This document shows positions 1 to 38,199 of a DNA stretch of 38,536 nt, piece by piece (the first letter of the stretch is position 1; every line of letters begins with the position of its first letter). The stretch covers positions 1 through 38,536 of the IMG/VR virus record IMGVR_UViG_3300031972_003021; one strand, given 5' to 3'. The notes beneath the pieces were generated by a model. The model saw nothing but the letters and a program-made list of their open reading frames with translations, ran no database searches and had not been told where the DNA came from. Origin of the DNA: a virus. A program made the position numbers and the translations under genes.

Positions 1-3000
1 ATCCTTAGGATTCCCAAATTTTGCCCCAAATTTGGTCATATACCCCGCCTCAGCGTTAGCGGTTTCTTTCTTTTTCAAGAAGAATTTTGGTGTTGCACCT
101 AAAAAGTTAGAAATGGCATTTCGATAAAGAGTGTCTTCCGAACCCTCTTTGGTAGACCCTGAAACATCGTTGAACAAATACTCATTAATATCAGACAACA
201 AAATATCAGCGCTATTATTCCTTTTCAAAAATTCTTCAGGATTTAATATTGATTCGAAGGGGAATCTTTCGGACCACCAAAAAGCAGCCAAATCACTGCC
301 AGTAAGATTATCAGCAAAATTCCACTGGGCATAGGCATCTGTTGCCGACGGTCGGCGAGTGTTGCCCGGAATATTACCCGCAGTTATAGCAGAACTCAAG
401 GATCCACTCTTAATCCCCGAAAGTGGCTGTGTAGCAGGGATAGGGTATATTGTCTGGCTTTGATTTCCATCTCGAAGCACTGGATAATCAACTGCTATAC
501 CCGACTTGATTGAATTATACATAATACCAGGGGCAAAGAATGGTCTTAGAAGAGTCCGCCAGCGCATACCAGAACTGCCGGAAGCCCCCGAGAATATAGA
601 GGAGGGACTATAAGAAGAAGAAAACAAAGTAGCGATTTGCAAAGATCTATCCTGAGGATAAAAACCATCGTAAGGCAGGAACTTTATTAGGGCATCTGAG
701 CTTATCTCTAGGTGTTTAGGATACTTGTTAAACAGCAAGTCAATCCCATGATCCATAAAGTCTTCCAAATTCTCGACGTGATCGGTATAGACATACCTTT
801 CATAAAAATCATCAAAAGAACTGTTATAATTGTCGTGATTAGAGCCAGTAATAGACAAGGTTGATGTTACTCTATTTAGAGGATCCCTGTTTGATAAGTA
901 AGTTGGGTAATGTTCGCTAACCCTGTATTCTGGAACTATTGTATATTCTTGTCCGGCGAGGCGGGTATCTTTATGATACTCCTCATAAGAATTGTAAAAA
1001 GGATATTGTCGAGCGACCGCATTTCCATAGATACCAACTCGGCTTCGACCCGCTGACCAAAATGGTCTAGATATTGGTCCGCCAGGTGCATGCCACGCTG
1101 GAGAGTAATCATAACTCTTGCCTGTGTTGATAAGGCGAGAAGGAACGGTGTAAACATACTGACTGCTCACTGTGTTTGCTCGGGTTACCTGCTGCGGAGA
1201 AGTGAGTGGTGCTGCGGTATTGTACGCTGTGCCATAATGTGTTAACAGCAATTCTCCGCAAGGCAAACCACCAGCAGCACCTGCCAAATCCAAATATAAG
1301 GATGTGCCATCAATATTGTTAAATTCAGAAAACAACCAACTGTCTAATGGCCATATTGAACCTGTCCCAGCCCCTGTCGGCACAATGCTACCATAAGGCT
1401 GTTGTTCCGAGTTTTGAAGCACGTATCCTTGAGAAGTTGTGAAGGCAGATTTCCAGCGATTTTTATTTCTGCTAACAATTGTCTGGTTTCCCACAGAGGA
1501 AAGGTCAGTGACACTTGTGAATCCTGCCATAAGAGAGGTAGCATAAGAAGTATTTATGTTTACATCATCTTTCCAGAAGTTTATTTTGAAATTTTGTCTA
1601 GCCCTAGACTCTGAAAAATATGTATATATTTCTCTTGGATAAATTGTTTCCTTATAACTGTTCATTTGAACTGTCTGAACACCATCTACAACAGCCAATA
1701 CATTTTGCACATAGTGATCTCTTAAGATCTCATAAGGTCTTTTTATTTCCCCGTGCTGCCACTTCCATCTCTTGAAATGACGGTTGAGTGGGCGATTTGC
1801 AAACCCCATCAAAACGTTACCGTAAGAATAATCCACAGAAACATTTACTTCATCTTGCCTCCCGTATTGAGTTTGTGCAGCGGTACCTGGGTTTGTTTTT
1901 ATGAAACTTCTCATTGGTTTATAGCGAGAGGTTATTGGCGTTTCCTTGTAAGAATTTGCGAAACGGCTAATAACAGAACCACCTACTCGATTAACATAGG
2001 TGCTTTTTTTCGCCCCTTCTACTACAACAATCCCCCCGTTATCTGGATTTTCATCCGGTCGAAGTCTTCGAGGATTTAAAGGCAGACGGTACATAAGGTT
2101 TTTATTTAAACGTCGAGCAGCCTTTATTTCTCCAGACCTAAGTTGAGAAAAGACTGAATAAAAAGGCTGCCGAGCCCACAAATATCTAACAGATCCTGCG
2201 GAGCCAGTAAATGCACTTCCAGGGAACCCAGGAGAGGTTCCAAGACTACTAGTATAAACAGTTAAATTTTCAGGCAACATAGTGCCGGATAGGATGTATT
2301 CTTGGTAACTTGGATTATTGCTGCCAGATATTGACCATAGCCACAACATATTATCTGCCGCAGGGATAGGACGAGTAACAAAACCATTATCCCTTACAGA
2401 TCCAGTCTTATACAACCAAGGGTCTGAGGCAGGAGTGCCCTGCCAGACATCTATAACTCGTCGAAGAGTGGTATTTCTTTGTGTTTTATGTAGGGCTGCT
2501 AGCCCTCCGCCATTCATAGGAAATTTAGCAGAAAATCTATAATAACCATCACCACGAGAAGCATTTATTATATTGGGCTCTGATATAGGAGGAGTAAATG
2601 TTAGAGAATATCCTCCATTATTAAACCAAGATAGTGTATTGCCGCCTTTTACCGCACTAGTAAAATTAAATTCTGTGGTAGAACTCCCTATTGTTGAGTT
2701 AACTAAATTTTGCTGGAATCCACCCCACCCCGTATAAATTTTAAGGTATCCTTGTAGTCCAGCACCGCCCCCAAGTGACTGCCCCATTGTTCTATTTGTT
2801 ATGTTTCCAACTCGTCTGACTGCTTCATTTCTAAAGGGCAGGGCATTATTGGGAGAAAATTGATCTGTTGGTATATCACGAGTCTGTTGGCTTGAGTCCT
2901 GCTTACTGCCGGGCGAAGCAAACTGGTTAGCAATAATACTCTTAGTTATACGACGACCCGTTTTTTGGCGAGGAGAAGAGTATATAAATGCACCAAAAAT

Positions 3001-6000
3001 ACCAGAACCAGAAGGGGATGCGGTCAACAGTGTCCTAGAAGATGGTGGCGTAACAAATATTGTAGGCATCGCAGAAGCCGTAGTTGGAAGCGATGACTGA
3101 TCTAAAGAATAATCAGAGGTTTGATAGATAAAATCAACATTGGCTAAGGTTCTGTCTCCGCCTTCAATGACTTCATAATTTTCAGAAAAGTTGCCGACTG
3201 GGAGAGCACCCTCCCAGGCTTGAATAGAGCCTGTAAAAGTTCTAATGTTCTCTATATTTACAGGGGACTTTGAGGCTAATCCTCGAAGATAATTGCCCTT
3301 GGGCGTAATCCCGGTCGTAATGCGATTTAAAGCAATCTGGTCTGTGCTAAGTGCGAGTGTATGTGACTCAAGTCGAGGAAACGTAGAAATAAACTTCCTC
3401 ATTGGATTCGCATGGCGTGCCTGAATTCCACCAACGTGCTGTTGGGTAAAAGGACCCTGCATAGGAACACTATGCTCTACAGGATGAATACTATCTTCGT
3501 GAAGGTTTGTTAATTCTACATTTGTTATCCCGTGAGATACCAAGGCTGCTTTGTAGTCGTTGACGTTTCCTACAGTTGCCGAAGAGGAAAGTGCAGTAAA
3601 TGGAGACAACAGTTGTCCTTTATAATTCTGATATCCATCGGACGCCTTAAAAGATACGCTCTTTTTTTGAAGTTCGGGTGGTGTCAGTGGATCGTCACAT
3701 GCTTCTTGGTCAAAGGCAAACTCAGTATAGATAACGTCTTTGACGTTTCTTTTTTTGTTAAGATATTGGTTTATTCCACCTACTATTGGGGTCTCGAATT
3801 CTCCACTAAAACAGTAGACATTACTGGCGGTGTGGAGTGTCTTAACCGCTCGTAAAATAGAAGTCTTATCTGAGTTGACCCCCGTTACCGAAGATGATAT
3901 ATTAATGTTATTTCTTTTTGCTTTTGTTCTCCACCACCAACAATTTTCAGACTGACTTTGTATTCCGGCAGTATTTGGCAAAGGTGCGTGATTATATTTC
4001 CAGCCTGGAACGTCCGGGCATACACTGCCGTCATTATTTTCTATGGTTGCTGTTGGGCTCTTAACATTTCTTTTAAATTGTCCTGGGTATCCAAACCGAA
4101 CTTTTGGTCTCTCCAGTACGTGGCTTTCTACGACTGTCCGAACCTCTTTAGCAAAACGAGCGGAAGCAGGGAAAAGTTGCTCAATCAATTCCGACATCGA
4201 TGTATCGATCCACTTATAGAAATTAACATATTTTTCAAAATCTATTATACGAGTATCAGAATTGCGGAAAAATATTTCCCTCATTTTTTCTAGAGACTTA
4301 TAGTCTTGTCGATATTTGTATACGGGCTCACCAATTAAATTGTTCATCTCCTCAATGGATGCGAAAAGTTGTAACATTCTTTCAGATATGTTTTTGTAGA
4401 GGCTCTTTTCTACTGCATAAAAGTAAGATACAGGTCGTTGACTACGGTTAAATACTTCATCATCACTTACTACAATATTTACCATATCGCTGCTGACACC
4501 GTATTCTGGGACCTGAAGTTTTTGAGAATAGGTATATTGTTTTAAAGCCGTAGTTGAGTTGGGTTGGAAAAAGTCTCCACGACCCGTGTGCTGCCTGAGA
4601 TTTAACTTAGAGAAATTGTCTCCCTGATAGTTACTCAAATAATCAGTGGAGTTTGAACCAGATGAAAAATCGTCTACCCAAAATCTACCAGATGCGTCAC
4701 TTCCTGTTACATTATTAAAATCCCAATTTAAAGCAAGTGTTTGAATCTCTGGAACAAACACGCCTGGAGCGTTGTTTTGAAATTTATAAGCGTTTCTGTA
4801 CGGATTTAGTCTACCAAAACTATCTGTTTCTTTTGCGTGTAGGTCCACTGTCCCAGTCGGAAGGTAATCTGTCCAATACCTGACACTAGAGACTCTTACA
4901 TCACTTGTAACGAGATAAGATCCTGTAAAGTCTGTTCTTTCGGCTCCCGCATAAATTCTTTTAGCAAGGTTAAGATACTGAGAGCCTGAAATATAACTTA
5001 CTTGCTTTTGTTCTGTGAAGCTATTTCTTAGTAACCCAGTGTTATAATTATAGCCGCACAACTCTACAGTATAAGAACTTGAGGCAATAGAAGACCCATC
5101 GCTAATATCTGTACCAAAAACTCTTTGAGCGAAAGGATATTTTGGGGCTCTAACACTGAGTGCTAGGTTCCATTTTTCATTTTCATACACGTTTTGGAAA
5201 ATACTACTAGTAAGGATTACATTATTGTTTCTGTCCAAAACCGCAAAGTAAACATCTTTTACCTCGCTTGTAGGCGAAAAAATCTCAGCATATGTACTTG
5301 GTGACCTAATTGCTTGAACTCTTAGACCGAAGTCCATATATTGTGTCGCCCATTGTAGGGCTGTAGATTTGGGGGAATTATATTGGGGTGTATGAAACCC
5401 AAAAAGCGACGAAGTTTCAACAACTGGTACAGTGTATGATAATGTGTCTTTGGTGCTCTTATCGGGAAAAACAACTTCGCCTTCAAGGGTAAACGCAAAT
5501 TCATTAAAAGTGGTTTCGTGACTTCCAGTGGGAGATGATCCAGAAATTAACCCAAAAGAAGATTGTGGTCTAGAAGAATCATAATACTGATACACTGTGC
5601 CGAAGGCATCTTGCTGGTTTCTCAGCCCAGAAAAGTCAACATACTTTTTATTACTTACACCATCCAAATAATTGCTTCGAAGAATAAAATCTTCATTGTT
5701 TGGGTAGATGTTAACTGCTACAATATTTTCACCAACACCGAGACATCGAATAAAGTTACGAATAGCCTTCTCGGTGCCCTTTGATTTGTAGATATAAACT
5801 AAGTTATTATATATGTTTTTGTAGATTGAGTTTTTTATGGAGAACAACGCCTGGTCAAAATTGATTTGCTCATCTCTTTGAATAAACTGTCCTAAAGTTC
5901 CAATGTTTTCGAAAAGTTCTGGTGCTTCTGTCCCTAGTGTTTCGATGAGTCTGTCATTATAAGGAAATTCGTTAAGACTCCCCGTTTGACTCCCGCTTGC

Positions 6001-7539
6001 ATATGTGTTGTTTCTTAACTTTGAAACCGCACTTATTTGAGCATGTAAAACATCAAAATAGTTCGATATAACCTGAACCAAGTCTCCTAGTTCTTGAGAG
6101 TTTTGATTGTCTTGTTCTCTAATCCACTTTGGAAAGGTGTTAATAAGACCGGCTGAGTTGTTCAAGTCATAATAATTTCCGAGGCTTATTAGTGAATTTT
6201 TGTTGGTGTCATACGGGATAGTTTGACGAACCGCCGGGTCCTTAGTTTCGAATTTAGATGTCAGTGACATCTGATCAATAGCGGAAGAGGTGTTACGAGT
6301 CAGCGTACTGCTATAACCTGTAAAGGAGCCATTTGATATACGACCCGAATAATCGAGAACAACCTTATCTACACTTCCAGTTCCCGTAATGCCTTCATTA
6401 AACTTATAATATAGACCTAAAGCAACGTTTGCGTCATACTTGTTTGTGCCGCCATTTACGTGCGTAAACCAATATCTACCGATATCTTCTGCGCTTCGAT
6501 TGGTCTTCCAAAACCTGAACTCGTCTAAAGACGCAGATAATTTACCTTGACCCACCTGATCGGCGGCGGCACCAAATTGATCTGCTAGCGCATAAGTTGT
6601 AGACGAAGTGACAAGTGCTCCAAGGTTTGCCCTTAAGGATCCTGTAACTAAGCCTATTTCAGCACCGGCAACAATATCCTTTTGAAAACAAACACCATCA
6701 ACATAAAAGTCAAGTTTTGGCTGTTTCAGACTTGTGTCAAAAGCAAAAGCATAATGATGCCAACTACCACTCGATAAATCAAGCCCACCTGTGGTCGGAA
6801 CTGGAGTAGAAAAATAAGGAGCCGGTGCTGTTGCACCAGACTGAACAGTTACATAAAACCTATCTTGTGCCCCGCCATTACTAGCAGATATATAAATCTG
6901 AAAACGACCATAAGAATTTGAACTAGCAGTAACTCCGTTCCATAGGTCAAGTATGACCTGGCGGTCGGAAGAAACTGTGGTGTCAGTAATCGCATCTTTT
7001 TTAAAGAAAAATTCAACAGTAGACCCGCTAGGACCGCCAAATTCTAAGTTGTTTGTCCTATCCTGAGCAACACTGTAAATGGTGCTTTTTTGAGGTCCGC
7101 CCTTAACGTTAATATACTCAGGATTAGAAGAAATGTCATACCCGTTTACTCCCGCAGTTATAGATTCCGCCGCCGAGTTGGCTCCAATAGTAACAAATCC
7201 TGTAGATCCTGGGTATTGTTCGTCGAAAATGTATTTTTCAAACAAATTTAAATCATTATAAAATTTTTCTTTTTCGAATGCCGAGCCATCATAAGGGTAA
7301 TATCCTTGGATGTATTCAAAAGAATCTTTATAATATTTTTCTGCTGATCCAAACTTAGCAAAATTTTCTGGCTTTGAATAATCGACAGAAGGGATGAAAG
7401 TTTCTCTCTTTTTAAAACTTTCAGAAAGATGCCCGGCTGATTCCATACCGGGACCTGGGCTCCCAATGTCACTTTTCTTCAGATATTTACTAACAACAGT
7501 AGTTTGTTTGTTTTTCTCAAATAACCTTTTTATGGTCAT
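1..7539 (-). CDS. Giant virion protein with LamG-like domain and gpI-like segment, partial (stop lies beyond left edge)
   Basis: The minus frame starting at the ATG at 7539 stays open to base 1, giving 2513 codons with no stop in the window. The ATG overlaps the stop of the 502-residue gene as ATGA. Residues about 165-362 look like a LamG/concanavalin-type jelly roll: WHHYAFAFD, then YVDG, then SLDEFRFWKTNRSAEDI near its end. Around residues 572-605 the text YIYKSKGTEKAIRNFIRCLG resembles the KGT-x-x-A-(I/L) segment of P2 tail protein I. The rest is rich in Ser, Gly, Thr, Asn and Tyr, typical of beta-structured fibres. It lies directly downstream of the gp6/J-like and 502-residue genes, where wedge and fibre-attachment proteins usually sit. 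I infer an extended baseplate or fibre protein; the binding target is unknown. The coding frame is certain, the role moderately so. Confidence 0.85.
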   Translation of the reverse strand, partial: MTIKRLFEKNKQTTVVSKYLKKSDIGSPGPGMESAGHLSESFKKRETFIPSVDYSKPENFAKFGSAEKYYKDSFEYIQGYYPYDGSAFEKEKFYNDLNLFEKYIFDEQYPGSTGFVTIGANSAAESITAGVNGYDISSNPEYINVKGGPQKSTIYSVAQDRTNNLEFGGPSGSTVEFFFKKDAITDTTVSSDRQVILDLWNGVTASSNSYGRFQIYISASNGGAQDRFYVTVQSGATAPAPYFSTPVPTTGGLDLSSGSWHHYAFAFDTSLKQPKLDFYVDGVCFQKDIVAGAEIGLVTGSLRANLGALVTSSTTYALADQFGAAADQVGQGKLSASLDEFRFWKTNRSAEDIGRYWFTHVNGGTNKYDANVALGLYYKFNEGITGTGSVDKVVLDYSGRISNGSFTGYSSTLTRNTSSAIDQMSLTSKFETKDPAVRQTIPYDTNKNSLISLGNYYDLNNSAGLINTFPKWIREQDNQNSQELGDLVQVISNYFDVLHAQISAVSKLRNNTYASGSQTGSLNEFPYNDRLIETLGTEAPELFENIGTLGQFIQRDEQINFDQALFSIKNSIYKNIYNNLVYIYKSKGTEKAIRNFIRCLGVGENIVAVNIYPNNEDFILRSNYLDGVSNKKYVDFSGLRNQQDAFGTVYQYYDSSRPQSSFGLISGSSPTGSHETTFNEFAFTLEGEVVFPDKSTKDTLSYTVPVVETSSLFGFHTPQYNSPKSTALQWATQYMDFGLRVQAIRSPSTYAEIFSPTSEVKDVYFAVLDRNNNVILTSSIFQNVYENEKWNLALSVRAPKYPFAQRVFGTDISDGSSIASSSYTVELCGYNYNTGLLRNSFTEQKQVSYISGSQYLNLAKRIYAGAERTDFTGSYLVTSDVRVSSVRYWTDYLPTGTVDLHAKETDSFGRLNPYRNAYKFQNNAPGVFVPEIQTLALNWDFNNVTGSDASGRFWVDDFSSGSNSTDYLSNYQGDNFSKLNLRQHTGRGDFFQPNSTTALKQYTYSQKLQVPEYGVSSDMVNIVVSDDEVFNRSQRPVSYFYAVEKSLYKNISERMLQLFASIEEMNNLIGEPVYKYRQDYKSLEKMREIFFRNSDTRIIDFEKYVNFYKWIDTSMSELIEQLFPASARFAKEVRTVVESHVLERPKVRFGYPGQFKRNVKSPTATIENNDGSVCPDVPGWKYNHAPLPNTAGIQSQSENCWWWRTKAKRNNINISSSVTGVNSDKTSILRAVKTLHTASNVYCFSGEFETPIVGGINQYLNKKRNVKDVIYTEFAFDQEACDDPLTPPELQKKSVSFKASDGYQNYKGQLLSPFTALSSSATVGNVNDYKAALVSHGITNVELTNLHEDSIHPVEHSVPMQGPFTQQHVGGIQARHANPMRKFISTFPRLESHTLALSTDQIALNRITTGITPKGNYLRGLASKSPVNIENIRTFTGSIQAWEGALPVGNFSENYEVIEGGDRTLANVDFIYQTSDYSLDQSSLPTTASAMPTIFVTPPSSRTLLTASPSGSGIFGAFIYSSPRQKTGRRITKSIIANQFASPGSKQDSSQQTRDIPTDQFSPNNALPFRNEAVRRVGNITNRTMGQSLGGGAGLQGYLKIYTGWGGFQQNLVNSTIGSSTTEFNFTSAVKGGNTLSWFNNGGYSLTFTPPISEPNIINASRGDGYYRFSAKFPMNGGGLAALHKTQRNTTLRRVIDVWQGTPASDPWLYKTGSVRDNGFVTRPIPAADNMLWLWSISGSNNPSYQEYILSGTMLPENLTVYTSSLGTSPGFPGSAFTGSAGSVRYLWARQPFYSVFSQLRSGEIKAARRLNKNLMYRLPLNPRRLRPDENPDNGGIVVVEGAKKSTYVNRVGGSVISRFANSYKETPITSRYKPMRSFIKTNPGTAAQTQYGRQDEVNVSVDYSYGNVLMGFANRPLNRHFKRWKWQHGEIKRPYEILRDHYVQNVLAVVDGVQTVQMNSYKETIYPREIYTYFSESRARQNFKINFWKDDVNINTSYATSLMAGFTSVTDLSSVGNQTIVSRNKNRWKSAFTTSQGYVLQNSEQQPYGSIVPTGAGTGSIWPLDSWLFSEFNNIDGTSLYLDLAGAAGGLPCGELLLTHYGTAYNTAAPLTSPQQVTRANTVSSQYVYTVPSRLINTGKSYDYSPAWHAPGGPISRPFWSAGRSRVGIYGNAVARQYPFYNSYEEYHKDTRLAGQEYTIVPEYRVSEHYPTYLSNRDPLNRVTSTLSITGSNHDNYNSSFDDFYERYVYTDHVENLEDFMDHGIDLLFNKYPKHLEISSDALIKFLPYDGFYPQDRSLQIATLFSSSYSPSSIFSGASGSSGMRWRTLLRPFFAPGIMYNSIKSGIAVDYPVLRDGNQSQTIYPIPATQPLSGIKSGSLSSAITAGNIPGNTRRPSATDAYAQWNFADNLTGSDLAAFWWSERFPFESILNPEEFLKRNNSADILLSDINEYLFNDVSGSTKEGSEDTLYRNAISNFLGATPKFFLKKKETANAEAGYMTKFGAKFGNPKD

Positions 7540-9044
7540 GGCTCTTCTTCACTTATCCTAAACTTGAAAATTTCTGGCTGTATGACGTATTGTCCGTTTA
7601 ATTTGTACGCCACTTGAATCCCATATGAGTATCCCTTGTCTAGATATGAAGTATCTAGATCAAAATAATTACCACTAACGTCATAAGACATAAGGGTTGA
7701 GTTCGTGCTCCCTGTACCAAAAGCAATCACGTCACTCTTGTCTATTGTCCTAAAAACTCGATAATACGCATTTTTTATAACCTCTGGCTTTACAGTGGCT
7801 ACAGCGATATTGTATATATTTGGGTTCCAGTCATACGGTCGAACAAAAACACGAAGTCGAGGTTGCTGTCCTTGTGTGTATGTGGTATCTAAATTAGTTA
7901 TAGCAGAAACTTTTCGGTCTTCGTAAATCACAGCCGAAGCCTTTACAACTTTCGGCTCATATGACCCCGTAAAATATTGAACAGGAGAGGAAGAAAAATC
8001 AGGTCCTCCAGAGCCTGTGTACCACACATCATACAGTACATCTTGGGTGCCCGTGGAAGCAAAAGAGGCTGTGTAAATTCCTGCAACATCGTTACCTCCT
8101 TCGTGGAGGAGACTTGCTGTTACATACGTTACACTATTGTTATTTGAGTCCACCAGTAATGTAGGCGTGGCAGAGTTACTCAAAGCCGTATAGACTGCTA
8201 CTCGGATGCGATTTCTCTTAATGTGTGGAATGTTTGTCAATTGTCCGTTGATAACATTGTAGAGGTACAGGGTGTTAAGGTTATCGGGTCCTGTTAACAA
8301 ACTGCTGCTAACAAAAAACCTTCCTCTGTCATCCTGCCTACTACTATTCCACTCGGCTTGAATGTAAGGTCTTTTAAGAAAGTACTCACTTGTTCTTCCA
8401 AAGAATTTCTTAGTATAAAATGTCCCCAAGGCACCTGATATGGCTTGGTCACTGTTCTTAATTAAGAATCCGTAGTTGTTTACTCCACCGCCTCGCCAGC
8501 GATCCATAGCAAAACCAACATCAACTGTCAGGTCTTCTACGCCCCCTGAGAAAAAATAACTTGCTGATCTTGGGACATTTGTGAAATCTGTGTCTCTATA
8601 ATAATCTCCGCCAGCGGTGGTCCAGCTTGTATTTACTTTTCGTTGCCCCCAGTTAGAAGCCCCGATATCAGTATAATTATCCATATCAAGTCCACGACCC
8701 TCACTCCACTCTGTTTTGGCTATAGCAACGTCCAAACTGTAGCTCAAAGGGGTTGTTCCTGCGTGAGGGGCATTGAACATTTTCAATGTATATGTAACAC
8801 TCGAAGAAGGAACGATACCATTAGAGATATCGCTGATTATTTTATCTACAGGAAATTGTATTAGGACTCTAGATTGTTCTGCATTGGTCGCATTAATTGA
8901 AGCCGAGGTTTGACCGTGTATGACAAAAGCCTCTAGAATATCAGCAGCGCCCATATTAGAACCTGTACCACGGGTAATTAAATTGTTCTTATACGCATTG
9001 GTTATCGTATTGTCAATAGTAGCATAATATCTTTTTATAGCCAT
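7536..9044 (-). CDS. Beta-rich virion protein with DNRLRE-like domain
   Basis: 502 residues with an ATG that shares one base with the stop of the gp6-like gene (TAATG). The N-terminal 210 residues run MAIKRYYATIDNTITNAY, then VLIQFPVDKI, then AIAKTEWSEGRGLD. This pattern of 'fibre-like beta sheet, R-V-L-I-x-F, then W-x-E-G' resembles the DNRLRE carbohydrate-binding-like fold seen in phage and surface proteins. The second half is beta-rich with Ser/Thr/Tyr and no catalytic motif that I recognise. No signal peptide or membrane segment is present. Position between the gp6/J-like wedge protein and the giant fibre-like protein suggests a baseplate or receptor-contact subunit. The family call is from sequence flavour and is moderate; a structural role is more secure. 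Confidence 0.75.
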   Translation of the reverse strand: MAIKRYYATIDNTITNAYKNNLITRGTGSNMGAADILEAFVIHGQTSASINATNAEQSRVLIQFPVDKIISDISNGIVPSSSVTYTLKMFNAPHAGTTPLSYSLDVAIAKTEWSEGRGLDMDNYTDIGASNWGQRKVNTSWTTAGGDYYRDTDFTNVPRSASYFFSGGVEDLTVDVGFAMDRWRGGGVNNYGFLIKNSDQAISGALGTFYTKKFFGRTSEYFLKRPYIQAEWNSSRQDDRGRFFVSSSLLTGPDNLNTLYLYNVINGQLTNIPHIKRNRIRVAVYTALSNSATPTLLVDSNNNSVTYVTASLLHEGGNDVAGIYTASFASTGTQDVLYDVWYTGSGGPDFSSSPVQYFTGSYEPKVVKASAVIYEDRKVSAITNLDTTYTQGQQPRLRVFVRPYDWNPNIYNIAVATVKPEVIKNAYYRVFRTIDKSDVIAFGTGSTNSTLMSYDVSGNYFDLDTSYLDKGYSYGIQVAYKLNGQYVIQPEIFKFRISEEEP

Positions 9045-10837
9045 TACTTCACAACTCCCTTGACATCCACATCGGGTATCAATATTTCTGCAACTGAGTC
9101 ATGCGGAATAACCACAAATCTTCCATCATCTGAGAGGTTGGAACGAACATCAAAAACATAGTCGCTATAGACTCCTCCAGATTTGTTTTCAAATTCAACG
9201 TTAGTGGTGTCTGTAACACCAGGGACGTCATTTAAGAGCTTGTAAATCTCTGATATATAAACTGGTTCTCCTATATCTCTTTTAACATTTAAATAATTGT
9301 TTTTGAGATATTCGACACAATCTTGCAAAACCTTATAACGATTAACATCTAAATCAGCGAGGATCTCAAAGTTAATCCCAAGATTAATAATCTTTGCATC
9401 TAGGATATCAATTGTATCATTTACCATACGGTATCGGTTGAGCCAAACTTTTAAGTTGTTACGCAAAGTATCATTAGGCGCAACAAAATTTCCTGACGTA
9501 TTCTCGCACAAGGTATAGATATTCAAGTTTCTCTTGAAAGAACTAGGGTCTTGTATCACGTTTACTCTTTTTAGTTTACCAAACTTTGATGGCATGCGAT
9601 AACACAAGTTAATGTAATCGCTGCGAGTAACCGCCCTGTTCTGGGTAGCAAAAGTAGCATACGCTCGGGTCCTAATCTCGTCTCCTGTAAGCGTGCTACT
9701 ATCTCCCAAGATGGGATTCTCGTTATCTACTTCCAGAGAGTCTTGCACTGTAGAAACTAATGTTGGGTCTAAGTTTCCTTGATTTTGAAAAGTAAAACGT
9801 GGAAAAGATGGAGTGACAACAGTTCCGACTGGAGCATTTACATTTTCAGAATCATTGGCAGTATACTCAATGGTTAAGGTAGTGTTTACTGGTACAACAC
9901 CAAACTTATCAGACGTTATTAAATTTGAAGGATCAAAAGTCTCGTCAGCAATATAAGATCGCCCAGTAGTTTTAAGAACCACGTCTGAAGGGTCAGCAAT
10001 AATATCGCCAGTTAAATTATCCGCAGAGCCATAACCAAATTGCAAGGTTGTAGTTCCGTCTACGCCGTGTTCCACTGTAAACCTTCTGGGGACTGGCATT
10101 GCGGTCAAAACATACGGAGTCACACTCATATCAGAATTAAAGTTGGGCTGCTCTTTATAGACAATATCTTCAGTTAGATAGTTGACCTCGAAGTATTCGT
10201 TACCTTGAGAATCTTTAACAGATAATATTTCTGATATGTTTTCTGCTTCTATAAAAACTCGTCTAAATCTTTGATAATCTCCCACCGTGACATTGGTTTG
10301 AAATCTTCTCCCGGAAATGACTTTCCCATATGCCTTGACGGCAAAAGTTAGAGGAGCACCAGTTGTTGTATCGACAGTTGCTACTGTGACCTCGTTTGTG
10401 CTTTTTGCAAAGTCTACATTCTCTATCAGCGTATAGCTAGCACCTCCGTTAGAAGTCAGAATACTACCCCTTTGCAAAATAGGAAAATAAGATAGATCAG
10501 GTCCACGAGATGTAGCATTAGCAGGAACTGTCACATAGAAAGAACAGATTCCTGTAGAAACTGCTGCGCCTGGGTTCTTGTATCCCAATTGTTGTGCAAG
10601 CCGAGAAATATTGGAGAATTCAATGGCACTATCTAAAAAACTTTCATTTGCTTGATAATCTGTATAAAAAGACAACTGGTCGCCGACATACGCCACCATA
10701 TCCAACATCAATGAACCAAAGGATGCTTCATTGAAGTCTTTAAACGTTGTTGGATAGTACCGCTTGGCGTAATTCACCAAGTCATTTTTAATAGTTTCGA
10801 AATCTCGACTAGTATAATTAATAGGTCTTTTGGTCAT
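9044..10837 (-). CDS. gp6: Baseplate wedge protein, gp6/J-like
   Basis: 597 residues. The N-terminus INYTSRDFETIKNDL followed by FNEASFGSLMLDMVAYVGDQ (about residues 6-54) is the classic opening of the gp6/Baseplate_J family, whose members form the inner ring of the wedge in contractile tails. Near the middle, LTGDEIRTRAYATFATQNRAVT fits the family segment 'E-x-x-R...Q-x-R-A-V-T-x-x-D-Y', and RSDYINLCYRMPS follows it. Length is close to T4 gp6 (660 residues). It lies 32 bases downstream of the gp25-like gene, and the next gene overlaps its stop by one base. gp25 and gp6 neighbour each other in most myophage baseplate clusters. No anomaly seen. Confidence 0.92.
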   Translation of the reverse strand: MTKRPINYTSRDFETIKNDLVNYAKRYYPTTFKDFNEASFGSLMLDMVAYVGDQLSFYTDYQANESFLDSAIEFSNISRLAQQLGYKNPGAAVSTGICSFYVTVPANATSRGPDLSYFPILQRGSILTSNGGASYTLIENVDFAKSTNEVTVATVDTTTGAPLTFAVKAYGKVISGRRFQTNVTVGDYQRFRRVFIEAENISEILSVKDSQGNEYFEVNYLTEDIVYKEQPNFNSDMSVTPYVLTAMPVPRRFTVEHGVDGTTTLQFGYGSADNLTGDIIADPSDVVLKTTGRSYIADETFDPSNLITSDKFGVVPVNTTLTIEYTANDSENVNAPVGTVVTPSFPRFTFQNQGNLDPTLVSTVQDSLEVDNENPILGDSSTLTGDEIRTRAYATFATQNRAVTRSDYINLCYRMPSKFGKLKRVNVIQDPSSFKRNLNIYTLCENTSGNFVAPNDTLRNNLKVWLNRYRMVNDTIDILDAKIINLGINFEILADLDVNRYKVLQDCVEYLKNNYLNVKRDIGEPVYISEIYKLLNDVPGVTDTTNVEFENKSGGVYSDYVFDVRSNLSDDGRFVVIPHDSVAEILIPDVDVKGVVK

Positions 10838-10869: not shown

Positions 10870-11271
10870 TTAGTCCCCTGCGGAAGTAATTTGTAGGGTG
10901 TCTTGCAAGTTCAGGCTGCCTATGTTATACTCTATAGAAACCTTCACTTCGTTGGCGTCCAAAAGATAGTCTGTTTCTGCGGTGCTGAACCTTACAGCCA
11001 GTATGTCAATAAATGGCATATATCTTTCTGTTTGCTCGTAAATTCTTGTCGTTATTTCCTGATAAGTCTTGCCTGCCATTGGTTCAAACAACATCTGATA
11101 TAATCCAACCCCAAACTCCGGAAGCATAATCCTTTCGCCTGGTACAGTCAGAATAAGATTTCTAAAATTTTGCCTGACGTTTTCGCCGAGGGTTTTGTTT
11201 AGAGCATAGGGACCATCTTCATTACTATACGAAAGTGGTAATTTAACTGCTATTCCTTCCATTTTACTCAT
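10870..11271 (-). CDS. gp25: Baseplate wedge protein, gp25-like
   Basis: 133 residues, the usual size for T4 gp25 (132). Residues 44-64 carry the family signature: PGERIMLPEFGVGLYQMLFE, matching the 'G-E-R-x-x-x-P-x-F-G-x-x-L' core conserved from T4 gp25 to type VI secretion TssE and P2 gpW. The ATG is preceded by AGGAG at a spacing of seven, just after the stop of the 1817-residue gene. The protein acts in the inner baseplate wedge with gp6 and the sheath initiator machinery, which fits the gp6/J-like gene that follows it. Confidence 0.95.
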   Translation of the reverse strand: MSKMEGIAVKLPLSYSNEDGPYALNKTLGENVRQNFRNLILTVPGERIMLPEFGVGLYQMLFEPMAGKTYQEITTRIYEQTERYMPFIDILAVRFSTAETDYLLDANEVKVSIEYNIGSLNLQDTLQITSAGD

Positions 11272-11285
11272 ATTTTGTCTCCTAT

Positions 11286-14200
11286 TTATATATCACCAAA
11301 AGCTGCCTGTTGCTCTCTTATTGACTGAACTAGGTCCTCTATCTGTTGTACTTCTTTGTTCTCCTTTGCTACCGCCCGACGGAAATCGTCCGGAGTCCTT
11401 GGTTCATCCCCTGGTTCAACCCCTCTAGCCTCGGCGTTAGCGTCTGCCTCCGTATCAATAATAACATCGTAGGAATATTCCACAAAATTTTCCTGCGCTA
11501 ATTTTCTTACACTCGTAGCATATTCTGCATATAACCTAAACTGAGTCATAAGATTTGTGTATAAATCATTGATGGTGTTTTGAACTTCTTCAGGCTCGCC
11601 CAGTCTGGATATATTTCTTCCTGCTTTTACGGTATCACGCAAAATTCCAGAAGTCTGAAATTGGGTCAATTTCCTGTCGTTCCCGATTAGACCTAAAAAT
11701 GCTGCTGGCTCCAGAACTGTATCTAACATATCTTCAATGTCTAATTTTATAATTCTCTTTGCATAATTGTGCCACTGTTGTATAGCAACAATGTTCCCGT
11801 TGGTACCCTGACGGTCTTGATCTAGGACACCGCCGAGGGTGGGGATCCACCGGAGCCACTCCGCAGGATTAACAAGCCTATCAGCGATGCCGGCAGTTCT
11901 TGCTGCTTGATCGACCAAATTTTGTGCTTCCAGGGCTAATCGTGCTAGTTCGGGTCGCTGGGCATTTATCTCGTCTAAAATTTCATCCATACGCTGTATG
12001 GCAGCATTTCCAGCAGCAGCCTCTTGTTGCTGTTCGGCAAGATAATTTTCTAGATCCTCCATAGTATAAAAAGTTATACCCTGAATAAATACTGGGAAAC
12101 CTTGGTATCCGACAGAATATACAGGTAACCGAGTAGGATTAACCGCAGACAAAAAAGAATCGTCAGCAATTGCTATCTTTGAATTTGTTTCGAATTTGTA
12201 TTTTCGATACCTGTCCATTATGTTAGCAATTTTGTCGTACATAATAATTTGTAAAGCCGTAAACAAAGGAACTGGAAGGTAATATAACGCATCGTGAGAA
12301 AACCAGTTTTCTGGGGTGTGGTCAAAAATTGCTTGATTGTTTACAGGGTTTTCTCTCCACCCTGGACCGAGAATATAATCTTTTTGCTCGTCGGTGGCTT
12401 CAACCATTTGTTGCGGAACTGGAAGACCTGCTGCTCCGTAAAGCCATCCGCCCATTCCACGATTGCCAACAATAGAAATTAAATCAGCACCGCTATTCAG
12501 CATATTTTCTTTCAATTGCAGCAGCATAAGTTCTGCCATCTGTCTATATCCGTTCTCTATGTTTTCGAAAAAATTACTATTAATAGCACTATAAGGGGTA
12601 GTATCTTGTCTTCTTATTACAAGGGATATAGACTGGACAATTGTCTCCCGAAATTTATCCTCGGCATTCATGTCGTTTGTGAATATTATTTTTTCGTTAG
12701 AAAATTGTCTCTGTTCATACTCTTGTGTGGAAACACGACCAAAGACTTTTTCTACTTTGTCTATGTTTTGTAGAAATACTCCATATAACTTTTTTTCTTC
12801 AAGCTCTTTTTTGATTTTTTCAAACATATAAGAGCCTATCGCCCGAACAGTGTCTGGAGTGTTCCAAAACAGATACATTCTCATCAAAGGAGCAACGTTC
12901 ATAAAGAATTTAGCCACTCTTTTTTCAATAGAACCCAACAATGCCTTGGCAATTGCCTCCTCAGGAGTTGTAATACAATCATCGTCATTCGCTACAAAAT
13001 AAGGTTGATAAAATGATCTAATAGTAGAAGGCAGACGAGTTCTGCCTATTGGAGAAAAGTAAAAAGTTGATATGTTCTCATAAAGAGTTTCGCTAGCATT
13101 GGCTGCCACTTTTATAGCATTCTGCGAAGCGTCCACATTGGACCAGTTAAAAGTTCTGAGAGTGGTATTAAAAAGTTCAGGGTACACTTCTGGCAAATTA
13201 ACCCTAAGTTCTGGTTGAGGAATTAAAGAGTATCCTGGGGCATCTTGGCTTGGAAGATTTGAAATCTCCAGGGGTGCTTTGAGGATTGTTTCTGTTTCGC
13301 CATCTGGTAGCATAATCTCGTAATCATAATCTTGTTGGAAAAGATTTAATTTAATTCTTCCATCTACTGGTGATGGCTGCCCTTCGGCAAACGGCGTCAG
13401 CATCAGTCGCACGCCAGCGCCTAATTCCACAAATGCATCACCGTCTGTTGCCGCAGTATTGCTTAAAAATGCACGATTCCCATTATTACCGCTAAATAAC
13501 AGATTTTCTGGTATTGCTCTTCTAAACAGACCAAATTTATCTCTTTGGTCGAACAATTCACCCCCAAATGCTGATTGATAAAATGCTGGTGCTCGGGGTT
13601 GTGGAACTCGGTCATCGTCATTAAACATATCGGAAATAGAAGCAGCAGCAGCATTACTTAAATCAGCAATCCACCGAAGAATAGCATCATAAATTCCTGC
13701 GTTTGGAATGCTATCTAGAAAATCCTCAAGCTCAAGTTGAAAATTAAATTTTCCTTCCAACATAGAACAAAGACTAATGAGTTCTAGCCTTTTCGAGTTG
13801 ACTGCCTCTTCCATTTGTTGCTGCTTTTGCACATCTGAAAGGTCAAACTCCCAGCGCAAATCGGGAGGCACAGCCTCCCTATCGTCACAATATGATTGAA
13901 TCGCAGTTATGGGATCTTCTCCGTAGAGTGCCTCTCTTGCTCCCTCTGACAATTGGTTTCCTATTTCACCAAAGTAGTTTACTATATTATCCTTATCAAA
14001 CCCCAACACAGCGTATCGAACATCTGGCTGATCATATGGTGGGTCTGCTCCTCTTCGAGGACTTAAAGATTCTTGATACATGCTAACAACTATTTTATCG
14101 TCCCACTCTATTTGTGGTCTTTCGTTGAATAGTGCCTGGGTATCTACCTCTCCCGCATTTATCATTTCATCAATAGTGTTTATAAGAACTTCAGAGGCTG

Positions 14201-16739
14201 TACCATCAAGAAGTTTTCCTAATTCGGTGGGAGTAACAATAGTAGAAACGTCTCTGTGAAGTTGTAGAAGCTGATCTTGTCGAGGAGGGGAAGTTATTAC
14301 CCGTCGATCCTTATCTTCATTGTAAGAAACTTCTTTGTTTGTGAGATTTAAATCCGTAGCAATTTCTACAACATCAATACCTCTAATAAGATCATTGAGC
14401 ATGATGCGACCATAGTTTACGCCCTTCCTAGAATCTGCTAGTCCAGCAGCGGCATTATATGGATCATCTGGTCCACACCCTAACGCAGCCTTGAAAACAT
14501 CCTTAAGAACACCCAAAATTAACTGCTTTATAAATGCTATAAGCATGAGTTGAATTTGTTTTTTCCAGAGCGACCAAAGATTGCTGTTAAACCCTTTTTT
14601 AAAACTAAATCTTAGTGGGGGATTTACAATTCCTCGTGTTACTAATTTATTAATTTCCTTTGGGGTACCAGCAGGCTTAAGGATTTGATCTTCAATAGCA
14701 GTTCCAATAAGATCAGTGATACAAGATATCTCACTATTAACCCAGTTCTCAGCATCTCTGGCTATAGCAGATGGATCTTCGGCATAGCGAATGGCATCAT
14801 TTAATCTCTCTTGATTTATTTTTTCTTTTATAAGTTCATCACGCACCAACAAGGCAGCATACTTTGTGAGGCTCCAAACTGGCGCTCTACCATTAATTAA
14901 TCTATAGATGGTAAATGCTTCCTTGAGAAGCGTTGATTGCACGCTGTCACACGAGCCCATAGCACTGGTTACAGAATAAAAAAGATCCTTCTGGCTTACC
15001 GCCATCCGAGATAAATCGCCGGGGGGTGGGTTGTCTGTTAACTGATCTATCTTTTGAAAGATATTAGGTGGTTTAGCAATTCTAAAATCTTTTCGGTCTC
15101 TTTTCCTTTGTTGTGTTGTCGGGGAAATCTTAATTTTTGGAATAACATAGGTGCTTAAAAATTCATCCCACAAAGGTCTCTCTGATTGGTTTTGGGTACC
15201 TATTACATTATCAATCAACAAACTGTTAAAAATAAACCCAAAAGTTCGATTTCCAAATGTAGCAAAAACATCAACTGCTTTCTGAGAGGTCAAGGGGGCT
15301 TCTTCATCAACCAAAGACGAGGGAAGAAGAAAGGTGGCACCTAAACCCTTTGAATACAAAACTCCATCAAGAATGATATAAGATATTCTCATATCCTCTC
15401 TAAAAACAAATTCAATTAAATTTGATAAATCATCATCTGTGGTTATATCGTTATACAGAAAAAACGAACTCAAGCTGTCGTAAAAAGTTTCTAGTTTTAA
15501 TATCTCTCTTTCAATGTCAAATCCCGAAACAACATCTGGTGTTATTTGTTCCGCTATCATAATATTTTCATAGTCTTTTAATACTCTAATGGTTCCTCTG
15601 ATTGATTCTTGTAATCCTCTTAGCGTAAACGTACTATGTCTTAGGCTCGTATTTTTATCAGGGTCTATTAAAAGTTCTGCCTTTTGGTACGGCTCAAAAT
15701 CAATATCTTGAGTTGATTCATTCTGCGCCACGTCCTCCAAGAGATCTCCATCGATCATCGCCTTTGGAATAATAACAGCATAAACCCAACGAGAGGATGG
15801 TCTTTTGTTAAGGTATGTTCTCACCTCTACTTCATTGCGAGGAATCAATGTGAAATTTTGGGAGGAAAACTTTCCTACTAGTTTCAGTATTTCTTCAATT
15901 CCTTTCTCTTTAGCAGAGGCAATAGCGTTTCGGGTCGCTTCGCTTGAGTCTAAGAGTCCAAGGTCATATGTTTGTTTGTTGCGAGTATTTGTTCTTTTTA
16001 CAAAATAATAGTTTTCATCATTGGGGTTATAATAATATGTTTGGGATGCTTCGCCAGGCAATGCATTATTGTACCAGTTGTAAAGATCGATCGTATCAGA
16101 CTGCCCCCTAAAAGGTATGACATTTTGGTCTTCGACTGTAGAGACCGTTGGTTCAAGTAGCGATGTGATAGGGTTCCCAAAGGAGGCTCTTATTTTTCTT
16201 CGGCGAGATATTGAAAAAGTATAAGGAATAGAAATCAATTGAGAAGTGGTTTGTTTTAATAGGTTCTCTTCAGAGACATTGAATGGAACATCTGCTCTGT
16301 TTAGATCGTCGTCTATTAGGTGTTCAACCCCACTAGATCCAGTGATGGCTGCTTGGTTTTCAGGATCTTGAGCCTCCTTGGATGTTGGAGATGTGTAGGC
16401 TTCCTCTCCACCGATGTTTAAAATTGCGCTAGAAATACGATTGAGTTGATTTATTGCTTCATTGTCTGATAGCATGTCCAAAGAAGAGTTTCCAACTCTG
16501 GCGTTTTGCGGGTAAACAGAAACATACGCTTGTATGTCTTGTATTTTTATAGAATCACCTTCGGGGATAATTCCTGGCTCCGCAGAAATTTCTAGACCGA
16601 CTTCTGGGAAAAAACCAAAGTTAAGATAAGTGTCTTGAATGCCTGCCAAAACCCATTGGTTTCTAACATTAGACCAATCATATTCAAATTGGCTGTAGAA
16701 TGGGTTTATGATATTTTTTTGTCTGTTGGTTAGTGCCAT
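11286..16739 (-). CDS. Very large virion-associated protein of unknown family
   Basis: 1817 residues encoded between the spike gene and the gp25-like gene. I do not recognise the family. The N-terminus (KNIINPFYSQFEYDW) lacks a signal peptide. There is a hydrophobic amphipathic stretch near residue 730 (QLMLIAFIKQLILGVLKDVF), a probable helical or coiled-coil segment near 1560-1620 (LAEQQQEAAAGNAAIQRMDE), and a Glu/Asp-rich charged C-terminus. The acidic, Asn/Gln-rich mixed alpha-beta text and its place inside the baseplate cluster suggest a structural component, perhaps a baseplate hub or wedge scaffold. It is not a tape measure by appearance: it lacks long uninterrupted helix repeats. No clear ribosome-binding site precedes the ATG, which lies 11 bases after the upstream stop. 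Coding is certain from length; function unknown. Confidence 0.85.
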   Translation of the reverse strand: MALTNRQKNIINPFYSQFEYDWSNVRNQWVLAGIQDTYLNFGFFPEVGLEISAEPGIIPEGDSIKIQDIQAYVSVYPQNARVGNSSLDMLSDNEAINQLNRISSAILNIGGEEAYTSPTSKEAQDPENQAAITGSSGVEHLIDDDLNRADVPFNVSEENLLKQTTSQLISIPYTFSISRRRKIRASFGNPITSLLEPTVSTVEDQNVIPFRGQSDTIDLYNWYNNALPGEASQTYYYNPNDENYYFVKRTNTRNKQTYDLGLLDSSEATRNAIASAKEKGIEEILKLVGKFSSQNFTLIPRNEVEVRTYLNKRPSSRWVYAVIIPKAMIDGDLLEDVAQNESTQDIDFEPYQKAELLIDPDKNTSLRHSTFTLRGLQESIRGTIRVLKDYENIMIAEQITPDVVSGFDIEREILKLETFYDSLSSFFLYNDITTDDDLSNLIEFVFREDMRISYIILDGVLYSKGLGATFLLPSSLVDEEAPLTSQKAVDVFATFGNRTFGFIFNSLLIDNVIGTQNQSERPLWDEFLSTYVIPKIKISPTTQQRKRDRKDFRIAKPPNIFQKIDQLTDNPPPGDLSRMAVSQKDLFYSVTSAMGSCDSVQSTLLKEAFTIYRLINGRAPVWSLTKYAALLVRDELIKEKINQERLNDAIRYAEDPSAIARDAENWVNSEISCITDLIGTAIEDQILKPAGTPKEINKLVTRGIVNPPLRFSFKKGFNSNLWSLWKKQIQLMLIAFIKQLILGVLKDVFKAALGCGPDDPYNAAAGLADSRKGVNYGRIMLNDLIRGIDVVEIATDLNLTNKEVSYNEDKDRRVITSPPRQDQLLQLHRDVSTIVTPTELGKLLDGTASEVLINTIDEMINAGEVDTQALFNERPQIEWDDKIVVSMYQESLSPRRGADPPYDQPDVRYAVLGFDKDNIVNYFGEIGNQLSEGAREALYGEDPITAIQSYCDDREAVPPDLRWEFDLSDVQKQQQMEEAVNSKRLELISLCSMLEGKFNFQLELEDFLDSIPNAGIYDAILRWIADLSNAAAASISDMFNDDDRVPQPRAPAFYQSAFGGELFDQRDKFGLFRRAIPENLLFSGNNGNRAFLSNTAATDGDAFVELGAGVRLMLTPFAEGQPSPVDGRIKLNLFQQDYDYEIMLPDGETETILKAPLEISNLPSQDAPGYSLIPQPELRVNLPEVYPELFNTTLRTFNWSNVDASQNAIKVAANASETLYENISTFYFSPIGRTRLPSTIRSFYQPYFVANDDDCITTPEEAIAKALLGSIEKRVAKFFMNVAPLMRMYLFWNTPDTVRAIGSYMFEKIKKELEEKKLYGVFLQNIDKVEKVFGRVSTQEYEQRQFSNEKIIFTNDMNAEDKFRETIVQSISLVIRRQDTTPYSAINSNFFENIENGYRQMAELMLLQLKENMLNSGADLISIVGNRGMGGWLYGAAGLPVPQQMVEATDEQKDYILGPGWRENPVNNQAIFDHTPENWFSHDALYYLPVPLFTALQIIMYDKIANIMDRYRKYKFETNSKIAIADDSFLSAVNPTRLPVYSVGYQGFPVFIQGITFYTMEDLENYLAEQQQEAAAGNAAIQRMDEILDEINAQRPELARLALEAQNLVDQAARTAGIADRLVNPAEWLRWIPTLGGVLDQDRQGTNGNIVAIQQWHNYAKRIIKLDIEDMLDTVLEPAAFLGLIGNDRKLTQFQTSGILRDTVKAGRNISRLGEPEEVQNTINDLYTNLMTQFRLYAEYATSVRKLAQENFVEYSYDVIIDTEADANAEARGVEPGDEPRTPDDFRRAVAKENKEVQQIEDLVQSIREQQAAFGDI

Positions 16740-16750
16740 ATTGTTATATA

Positions 16751-17647
16751 TTAATTTGTCGTGTTGTGGTCACTATTAATATATCCCTCTCCCCAGGGAA
16801 ATAAGTAATTATTTACCCAATTGAATAGATTCTTTTCGTGGTTTTGCATTTTAGCAGTTAAAATACCTAGACCCACAGATTGTCCTACTGATGCACCTTT
16901 TACTACTGGATCGACTGCACCAGCAGCCATAGGGGTAACCAGTGCTGTATATTGAAGCATAAAATCTGTTAACAAAGAGTGGGTATCAGAAATAAGTTCA
17001 GCCATTTCATAAAGGGCGTGCTGAAGAGAATCTCCTTTAACAAGAGGCTCTTGATTGGAATCATCATTGCCGGCAATAAGATCTATACCCTGAACTGTGT
17101 CGCTAATATTAAACCCTGGGGAATTATAAACATTTCCGCCAGTGACAAGTTTTATCCCCTGTCTTCCCACTATCCTAACTCCATCTGCTTTTATGGCTAT
17201 GCCAGAGCCTCCTCTCATATTCCCAATGTTTCCGTCTACAAGAGAAAAGTTATCATCAATGTTTGTTTTCTGGCTTATGTAAATGCGAGCGGCATCTAAT
17301 TCCGGACTTTTGTCCGTTACAACTGCAATTCCATCTTCTTCCTCACGACACATAATGCCGGTCATTCCTGCCACTATATCAATACAACCAGCATGAGTAT
17401 GTCCATTTCCCCCATAGCCACTGCTTTTTCCTCTTGGTCGGTCTCTGCCTAATATGATAAAAGTGTTATTGTTGCCCTGGAAAACTTTTTCGATGGGCGT
17501 ACTGTTATATATTGGATTTGGTTCGACTATGTTTTGATTATAAAAACCACTGTTATACGAATTGGGAGAAGATTGATCTCTCAATTGAGATCTTTTTTGT
17601 TCGCTTATATTGTCAGGTATGTTTTTTCTTTGTTTTCTGCCGGACAT
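16751..17647 (-). CDS. Probable baseplate spike / central-spike tip protein
   Basis: 298 residues; the ATG shares one base with the stop of the muramidase gene (TAATG). Residues 1-60 are polar and disordered-looking (Asn, Gln, Ser, Pro). From about 64 the text becomes beta-rich: FIILGRDRPRG, then GGNGHTHAGCIDIVAGMTG, then GSGIAIKADGVRIVGRQGIK. Alternating short strands with Gly turns and the phrase 'I-x-A-D-x-V-x-I-x-G-x-x-G-I-K' resemble the beta-helix of gp5/gpV spikes. The clustered HTHAGC could bind a metal, as some spike tips do, but this is a guess. The C-terminal 90 residues are helical. Placement next to the hub/lysin gene supports a spike role; a specific family is not established. 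Confidence 0.7.
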   Translation of the reverse strand: MSGRKQRKNIPDNISEQKRSQLRDQSSPNSYNSGFYNQNIVEPNPIYNSTPIEKVFQGNNNTFIILGRDRPRGKSSGYGGNGHTHAGCIDIVAGMTGIMCREEEDGIAVVTDKSPELDAARIYISQKTNIDDNFSLVDGNIGNMRGGSGIAIKADGVRIVGRQGIKLVTGGNVYNSPGFNISDTVQGIDLIAGNDDSNQEPLVKGDSLQHALYEMAELISDTHSLLTDFMLQYTALVTPMAAGAVDPVVKGASVGQSVGLGILTAKMQNHEKNLFNWVNNYLFPWGEGYINSDHNTTN

Positions 17648-19053
17648 TACCTATTTTTCCTCCAGAAATTGTACATCTTTACGTCATAAGCATTGACTGC
17701 ATAATTTGGACCATTATAAATCTTTGCAAATGCCGCAAAATTAGGAGGACTACTGTTAGCAGCTCGTTTGGCACGGGGATTCTTGTTCATCCAAGCAATC
17801 AGCATCAAATCTGATGCTTCGGCAGGATTGTTTCGGAACCCGTCCCAGGCTTTTTGAGGGTCTCCACCATATGCATCTAAAAGAGCCCAACCCATAACCT
17901 GATACAATCCAAACGATGTACATTCTATCGCCATTGCTGGATCAAGTTCGAATGCCCGAGCGAATGCTAATTTTCCCGTCTCTGACGCTGTAGTAGAAAA
18001 TCCTTTTGATGGGTTTCGAGTATAAGGAATCCTATCCCTTAAATCTGGGCGGCGGCGGTGCCATAAATGTGGCTCAAACCTAAGAGCGCCGGGATTTCCT
18101 CGGCTTTCTACATGACGAACTGCTGCCAAAACTGCACAAGGAATCCCTGCTTTTTCACAAAGCTGATCATCGCTCAAGGACCGTTTTGCGCTTTCAGAGA
18201 CAGTATATTTAGGACCACACCCAGGAATCTCAAGTTGTGGTAACGGAGTTGGAGACTCAAGGGGCGCTTTTTTAGTTTTTTGCCCAGGCTCTGGGGTAGA
18301 AGCCTTAGCAACTGTAGTTGTTCGAGGGGGTGAATCGGAGTATGAGGAGGGTGTCTTTTTGGGTGTTTTTGGTAATATGCCCCAAAATTCTCCTGCTGTT
18401 TGCACGATATCAGCAGTTACTTCCGATGCAGAATCAAAAGCAGAAGAGGCAGCGTCTAGAGCAGCAGAAGTTTTTTCTAGCGTCCATTCGGCTACACTAG
18501 GTTCCGGCTTTGTATCCTCGCAAGGGTTTTTGAAAACTCCTTTCGAGGTTTTTTTATTAGTGCCGTTAACACTATCATTTTCTAACCCCGCTACACCAGT
18601 TTTTATAACCTCAACAACCCGACCACCAATGGCTGGGTTGTGTTTATCATACAGGGTAACTACCACATAATCACCGGGCTCCGGTGTTTCTAGCCCTACT
18701 CCTGAAAACTCTCCGGGCATAGTATCTTTTATACCTGAAACGTTTTTTATTCCTGGCGGCAAATCATCGGGAGACAGCAAATGAGGAAATAAAGCCCTAA
18801 GATCTATTTTTACAGAATACGCTTTAGTTGTAGGTGGAAGAAAAGAAGCATACCAAGGAGAACTAGCAACTTGAGAGTCAATAACTCTTGCTCTAAATTC
18901 TTGTGTACCCTGGTGAACAGTGCTTACGTGTGTTTTTGCTTGCGCTAATTTTGAAGCGTGGGCGTTACTAGATAAACCAGGGACGTATGCCGGTTTGGAC
19001 GCTGGGCGGTTAGGATTAATTCTCTTTCTGGTATTGTACTTGGGGACTGCCAC
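17647..19053 (-). CDS. Baseplate hub (gp5-like OB fold) fused to N-acetylmuramidase
   Basis: 468 residues from the GTG at 19053. That start has AAGGGGG at a spacing of six and lies one base past the upstream stop; a TTG at 19077 gives 476 residues but lies inside the previous gene. Residues about 55-152 look like the gp5/gpV OB fold (TQEFRARVIDSQ, then PEPGDYVVVTLYDK, then GGRVVEVI). A Ser/Thr/Pro/Lys linker spans about 160-280. The last 180 residues match the N-acetylmuramidase family (DUF3380 type): VRHVESRGNPGALRFEPHLW, with E316 the likely catalytic acid, then TSFGLYQVMGW and KIYNGPNY. The enzyme would cut peptidoglycan during DNA injection, as T4 gp5 lysozyme does, but with a different lysin fold placed at the C-terminus. 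Confidence 0.9.
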   Translation of the reverse strand: MAVPKYNTRKRINPNRPASKPAYVPGLSSNAHASKLAQAKTHVSTVHQGTQEFRARVIDSQVASSPWYASFLPPTTKAYSVKIDLRALFPHLLSPDDLPPGIKNVSGIKDTMPGEFSGVGLETPEPGDYVVVTLYDKHNPAIGGRVVEVIKTGVAGLENDSVNGTNKKTSKGVFKNPCEDTKPEPSVAEWTLEKTSAALDAASSAFDSASEVTADIVQTAGEFWGILPKTPKKTPSSYSDSPPRTTTVAKASTPEPGQKTKKAPLESPTPLPQLEIPGCGPKYTVSESAKRSLSDDQLCEKAGIPCAVLAAVRHVESRGNPGALRFEPHLWHRRRPDLRDRIPYTRNPSKGFSTTASETGKLAFARAFELDPAMAIECTSFGLYQVMGWALLDAYGGDPQKAWDGFRNNPAEASDLMLIAWMNKNPRAKRAANSSPPNFAAFAKIYNGPNYAVNAYDVKMYNFWRKNR

Positions 19054-19054
19054 T

Positions 19055-31906: not shown

Positions 31907-31909
31907 ATC

Positions 31910-38186: not shown

Positions 38187-38193
38187 AATTGTT

Positions 38194-38199
38194 CCTCCT
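38194..38199 (-). promoter_or_regulatory. Strong ribosome-binding site AGGAGG deciding the TTG start of the first glycosyltransferase
   Basis: AGGAGG on the minus strand, overlapping the nuclease stop codon and seven bases before the TTG at 38186. This is the best Shine-Dalgarno match I noticed in the window and it selects the shorter 421-residue reading. Confidence 0.8.

Follow-up and report, generated by a model that had tools for sequence, protein, structure and literature searches.

A probable gp7-type baseplate wedge protein of giant size, with a LamG domain and a large extension, in uncultivated T4-like phages

The stretch of viral DNA analysed here, which we call the window, is a 38.5-kb IMG/VR fragment (38,536 nucleotides) with a giant minus-strand gene at its left end. 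This gene is encoded after gp6 in a gp25–gp6 wedge cluster. The minus-strand order is gp25, a gp6-type gene, one conserved gene for a protein of about 500 aa (502 aa in the window) and the giant gene, the last two overlapping by 4 nt. The features of the cluster and of the giant protein are as follows.

10870..11271, minus strand: gp25 sheath-initiator wedge protein (Pfam GPW_gp25, 8.4e-14; phrog_261)
9044..10837, minus strand: gp6-type baseplate wedge protein (phrog_219, E 2.8e-21)
7536..9044, minus strand: conserved 502-aa protein between gp6 and the giant; homologues occupy this position in Mel-JY01, immuto and LR756508
1..7539, minus strand: giant gene, with the first 2,513 of its roughly 3,176 codons inside the window; the 3′ end lies past the left edge and the full gene is found in the near-identical L002
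6481..7197, minus strand: LamG/concanavalin A-like lectin domain, residues about 115-353 (Pfam, AF2, Foldseek)
5704..6216, minus strand: putative helical gp7-type wedge domain, residues about 442-612 (T4 gp7 and S-PM2p084 windows above the null; homology to core-only proteins from residue 443)
5737..5784, minus strand: KGT motif SKGTEKAIRNFIRCLG, residues 586-601, mostly near-invariant in the family
4516..5670, minus strand: second, beta-rich domain of the core, residues about 624-1008 (AF2, pLDDT mostly 85-94)
4102..4422, minus strand: end of the core, conserved and largely helical, residues about 1040-1146 (conservation)
1093..4044, minus strand: variable first half of the extension, residues 1166-2149 (conservation falls off past residue 1150; a gene starts here in split relatives)
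1..1092, minus strand: start of the predicted C-terminal fold of the extension, residues 2150-2513, continuing to about 3176 outside the window (AF2)

The original prediction described a minus frame of 2513 codons without a stop, in a protein of more than 2500 residues whose stop was to be sought in neighbouring sequence, and all of this was borne out. The frame opens with an ATG at 7539 and runs to the window edge. A second IMG/VR record, L002 (IMGVR_UViG_3300031957_003334), is 99.98% identical to the window over 17,539 bases, with 1 mismatch in the 7,539 bases of the giant gene, and it holds the complete gene of 3,176 codons, ending in a TAG stop 663 codons beyond the window edge. The giant protein has 3,188 aa in L005, an 80% identical relative, and 3,596-3,631 aa in five other relatives that are about 47% identical; the longest relatives with a single open reading frame reach 4,037 codons, stop to stop. 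Substitutions between the window and L005 are mostly synonymous, with a pN/pS of 0.11-0.21 along the gene. This purifying selection shows that the frame is not a chance one.

Relatives of the giant protein were found in at least 323 IMG/VR stretches; the counts of relatives given here are minimum values, obtained with pattern-seeded searches. A tblastn search of 50,697 public phage records returned no match, and whole-protein searches of PHROGs, the PDB and the phage collection gave nothing useful. The lineage is one of uncultivated, T4-like, mostly aquatic viruses of bacteria. A T4-type Gp23 capsid protein is encoded in 8 of 12 relatives' contigs, and these eight are all the contigs of 160-204 kb; the window, for its part, is a fragment.

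The closest known neighbourhoods are those of Microcystis phage Mel-JY01, Flavobacterium phage immuto and the 484-kb phage LR756508, whose gp6-type proteins are the nearest to that of the window (32-35% identity over the length). All three have the same order, i.e. gp25, gp6, a homologue of the 502-aa protein of about 370-420 aa (hhalign 2e-19 to 2e-12) and then a large protein in the wedge position of the giant, although immuto and Mel-JY01 carry one extra gene ahead of it. The Mel-JY01 homologue of the 502-aa protein has a CBM96 match below the cut-off, so a carbohydrate-binding module is possible in the 502-aa protein. The identity of the 502-aa protein with gp8 was tested and rejected.

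Further genes lie upstream on the same strand. Ahead of gp25 is a 1,817-aa protein (11286-16739) with no Pfam or PHROG match. A 476-aa protein (17647-19077) has a C-terminal N-acetylmuramidase domain (E 1.2e-16) and is likely a tail lysozyme or endolysin, judging from this match. A 229-aa protein (19385-20074) is common to immuto, Mel-JY01 and LR756508 (E to 3e-30) and weakly matches the late sigma factor phrog_234. Positions 21204-38536 are taken up by a large surface-sugar cluster beside the baseplate genes, with UDP-glucose dehydrogenase, nucleotide-sugar epimerase, phosphoheptose isomerase/kinase-like proteins and several glycosyltransferases.

A LamG-like domain had been proposed near the N-terminus of the giant protein, and this assignment is secure. 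Pfam Laminin_G_3 matches the N-terminal piece with E 2.7e-10 (41 bits versus a cut-off of 27.6) and is present in 19 of 25 relatives. AF2 models the region as a beta sandwich, for which Foldseek returns pentraxin/neurexin-type matches to 4e-6 and a putative carbohydrate-binding protein at 7e-8. In phage Vp4 of the Herelleviridae, carbohydrate-binding modules inside a baseplate wedge protein, Gp119, bind host cells (PMC11406892), which makes it plausible by analogy that the LamG domain of the giant binds glycans. Gp119 is a different wedge protein and its modules are of CBM16 type rather than LamG. In the literature we found no direct precedent for giant baseplate proteins or LamG phage proteins of this kind.

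Behind the LamG domain lies a core that the giant shares with much smaller proteins. The proteins in its wedge position in immuto (KNV73_gp109, 1,265 aa), Mel-JY01 (WWT39511, 1,336 aa) and LR756508 (1,400 aa), which we call core-only, are homologous to residues 443-1150 of the giant. Their family profile matches these residues with E 6e-28, and comparisons of the core with single isolate proteins give hhalign values of 2e-13 to 4e-12. The end of the core (1040-1146) is matched in Mel-JY01 and LR756508, and weakly in immuto. Unlike the giant, the core-only proteins have N-terminal regions of about 400 residues that do not align and carry no LamG match. The AF2 model of the core has a pTM of 0.46 with low confidence around residues 509-563, and the Foldseek matches listed for it were of LamG type.

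The KGTEKAIRN segment, originally likened to tail protein I, is real and falls inside the helical domain of the AF2 model. We compared residues 430-660 with 132 profile windows, including reversed controls as an empirical null. Among the 132, the S-PM2p084 family gave the top two windows, which overlap (E about 2e-4), and T4 gp7 the next two (0.008 and 0.014); noise starts at 0.043, and all four align at a KG(T/I)E-type motif. The reciprocal search with the S-PM2p084 N-terminus recovered T4 gp7 (2e-5), the core-only family (3e-5) and the giant's core (1.6e-4), with noise from 0.022. The motif SKGTEKAIRNFIRCLG aligns to T4 gp7 residues 732-751 and, weakly, to P2 gpI residues 63-96 (hhalign E 0.078, sixth of 87 in a test with single sequences). 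Pfam finds no Tail_P2_I in the giant protein. The statistical support thus belongs to T4 gp7 and S-PM2p084, and the resemblance of the segment to P2 gpI is only suggestive.

T4 gp7 (1,032 aa) is the partner of gp6 in the (gp6)2-gp7 wedge module. Orthologues of gp7 come in very different sizes, e.g. 242 aa in XM1 (PMC10457771). Like the giant, T4 gp7 is encoded after gp6 and has the KGT/KGIE region. Unlike the giant, it follows gp6 directly and has no extension; the sequence similarity is short (about 20-40 residues) and modest, with no wider similarity found, and a PDB profile search with the giant did not find gp7. From the gene order, the match of the KGT region to T4 gp7 and S-PM2p084 and the variable size of gp7 orthologues, we read the core as gp7-type. 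The assignment to the gp7 family depends on the order of the genes together with a short region around the motif.

Cyanophages are already known to have giant proteins in the gp7 position. In the S-PM2p084/S-H34 gp052 family (1,942-3,644 aa) a giant protein with a KGT domain likewise comes next after gp6, but there the domain is N-terminal (motif at residue 197), whereas in our giant it lies behind the LamG domain. The remainder of S-PM2p084 has no detectable relation to the giant's extension. S-PM2p084 (L176:2273-11416) is annotated only as a virion structural protein, and it carries the gp7-type KGT region in the gp7 position. In a survey, pelagimyophages and cyanomyophages were stated to lack gp7 and to use VrlC instead (PMC7029224). 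The matches above suggest that S-PM2p084 retains a gp7-type region in cyanophages where gp7 has been called absent. What is new here is the architecture, the orphan extension and the evidence for a gp7-type domain persisting in cyanophages.

The extension comprises about 2,000 aa behind the core and was found only in the giant-protein lineage. In profiles built from 69 full-length proteins the core is well conserved to about residue 1150, the linker that follows is poorly conserved and the extension is less conserved than the core. Most sampled relatives have the extension fused to the core. In a ten-row clade (support 100), and again in a second clade (L115, L130 and L168; support 99), core and extension are adjacent genes, each with a stop and a start codon of its own; other members have breaks at other points inside the extension. 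The core/extension boundary is therefore a gene boundary in two separate clades, and the giant is modular: it joins two units that some relatives encode separately, a point missed by the original prediction. Sequencing errors were considered as the source of the split genes; the spacers, the separate start codons and the clustering by clade all argue against them. L054 has an additional break, within its core, that may itself be erroneous.

A conserved element, GACTAGTTAYTAAATG, sits at the start codon of the extension gene in the split-gene clade (L028:6367-6382, L030:6691-6706, L031:6307-6322, L040:6307-6322, L099:13759-13774 and others). It occurs once in each of eight split-gene loci, was absent from the other loci compared, and is perhaps a translation-initiation element, given its position. 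In the window the upstream motif of the split genes occurs at chance level.

Using the three core-only proteins as seeds, we identified at least 573 IMG/VR stretches. The complete open reading frames in the core-only loci fetched from these encode 1,191-2,217 aa, one short piece aside, and the extension is absent from all of these loci. The core-only outgroups suggest that the extension was gained. A profile of the extension found no match in the full genomes of immuto, Mel-JY01, LR756508, S-PM2 and S-H34 or in three core-only IMG/VR contigs, in a search that detected 4 of 4 positive controls. There were no relatives of the extension in GTDB genomes.

The original prediction saw in the protein an extended side structure of the baseplate with a long Ser/Gly/Tyr-rich body. 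The association with the baseplate stands, and the enrichment is present but mild (S 9-11%, G 7-8%, Y 5-6%). The word "extended" is not supported, as the last 1,000 or so residues are predicted to form one compact alpha/beta fold (L002 residues 2150-3176, 1,027 residues; AF2 pLDDT 82, pTM 0.87). Foldseek finds no match to this fold in the PDB (best E 1.5), which is not proof of a new fold. In BFVD it finds only seven proteins (E 7e-54 to 2e-21, then nothing below 1.2), one labelled uncultured marine virus and the remaining six unnamed. The motif YNWPYD[YF][CF]SL[VI]E near the C-terminus, at residues about 3107-3118 of the L002 protein (L002:10001-19528), recurs in distant members.

We think it probable that in this uncultivated T4-like lineage the giant serves as a gp7-type baseplate wedge subunit of enlarged size, carrying a LamG domain and an extension that would act as an arm or plate. 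The wedge core would be residues about 440-1150, with the KGT helical domain probably packing on two gp6 copies in the manner of the (gp6)2-gp7 module. The copy number would presumably be one per wedge and six per virion. The N-terminal LamG domain would face outward and could bind glycans, and the fused extension would form an arm or plate that carries or links peripheral receptor-binding proteins. Fusion would guarantee one extension per wedge; some relatives encode the two parts in neighbouring genes.

The size, the LamG domain and the place in a baseplate cluster would also suit a baseplate-attached tail or side fibre, and the protein was indeed first called fibre-like. That label is not supported: a repeat search gave short two-copy pairs only and no repeats of fibre type, residues 443-1150 are homologous to wedge-position proteins encoded after gp6, the gene sits directly within the wedge operon and the C-terminus is predicted to be compact and globular. 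We regard a fibre as improbable. Still harder to credit is that the giant is the large VrlC-type baseplate protein put forward as the gp7 substitute of pelagimyophages and cyanomyophages (PMC7029224). Its size, its baseplate cluster and the published proposal speak for this, but profiles show no similarity to the S-PM2 VrlC family (S-PM2p087; core E 0.33, extension 0.18), so we rejected the identity, and in S-PM2 the KGT domain is in S-PM2p084 and not in VrlC.

Other alternatives concern the extension. It might be a separate structural protein, at the baseplate periphery or as an adhesin carrier, that works independently of the wedge, with fusion a mere convenience of expression. Two clades do encode it as a gene with its own start codon, but it is fused in most sampled relatives and the split genes are still directly adjacent; we consider this unlikely. 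The giant, about 340 kDa when intact, might also be cut after synthesis into core and extension, as the separate genes of relatives and the poorly conserved linker after residue 1150 could indicate, although we give this little weight. Returning to the enlarged wedge subunit, we consider it nearly as likely as not that the extension brings a new fold of about 1,000 residues into the baseplate and is confined to one widespread uncultivated lineage, where it would replace the usual peripheral wedge proteins, having been fused to gp7 and later undergone fissions.

In summary, a likely function can now be assigned to a very large protein that has no public phage match, and a confidently predicted fold without a PDB match has been pointed out. 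The fused and split relatives are a natural series for studying how baseplates gain parts. Finally, the claim that gp7 is absent from cyanophages and pelagimyophages becomes testable via S-PM2p084.
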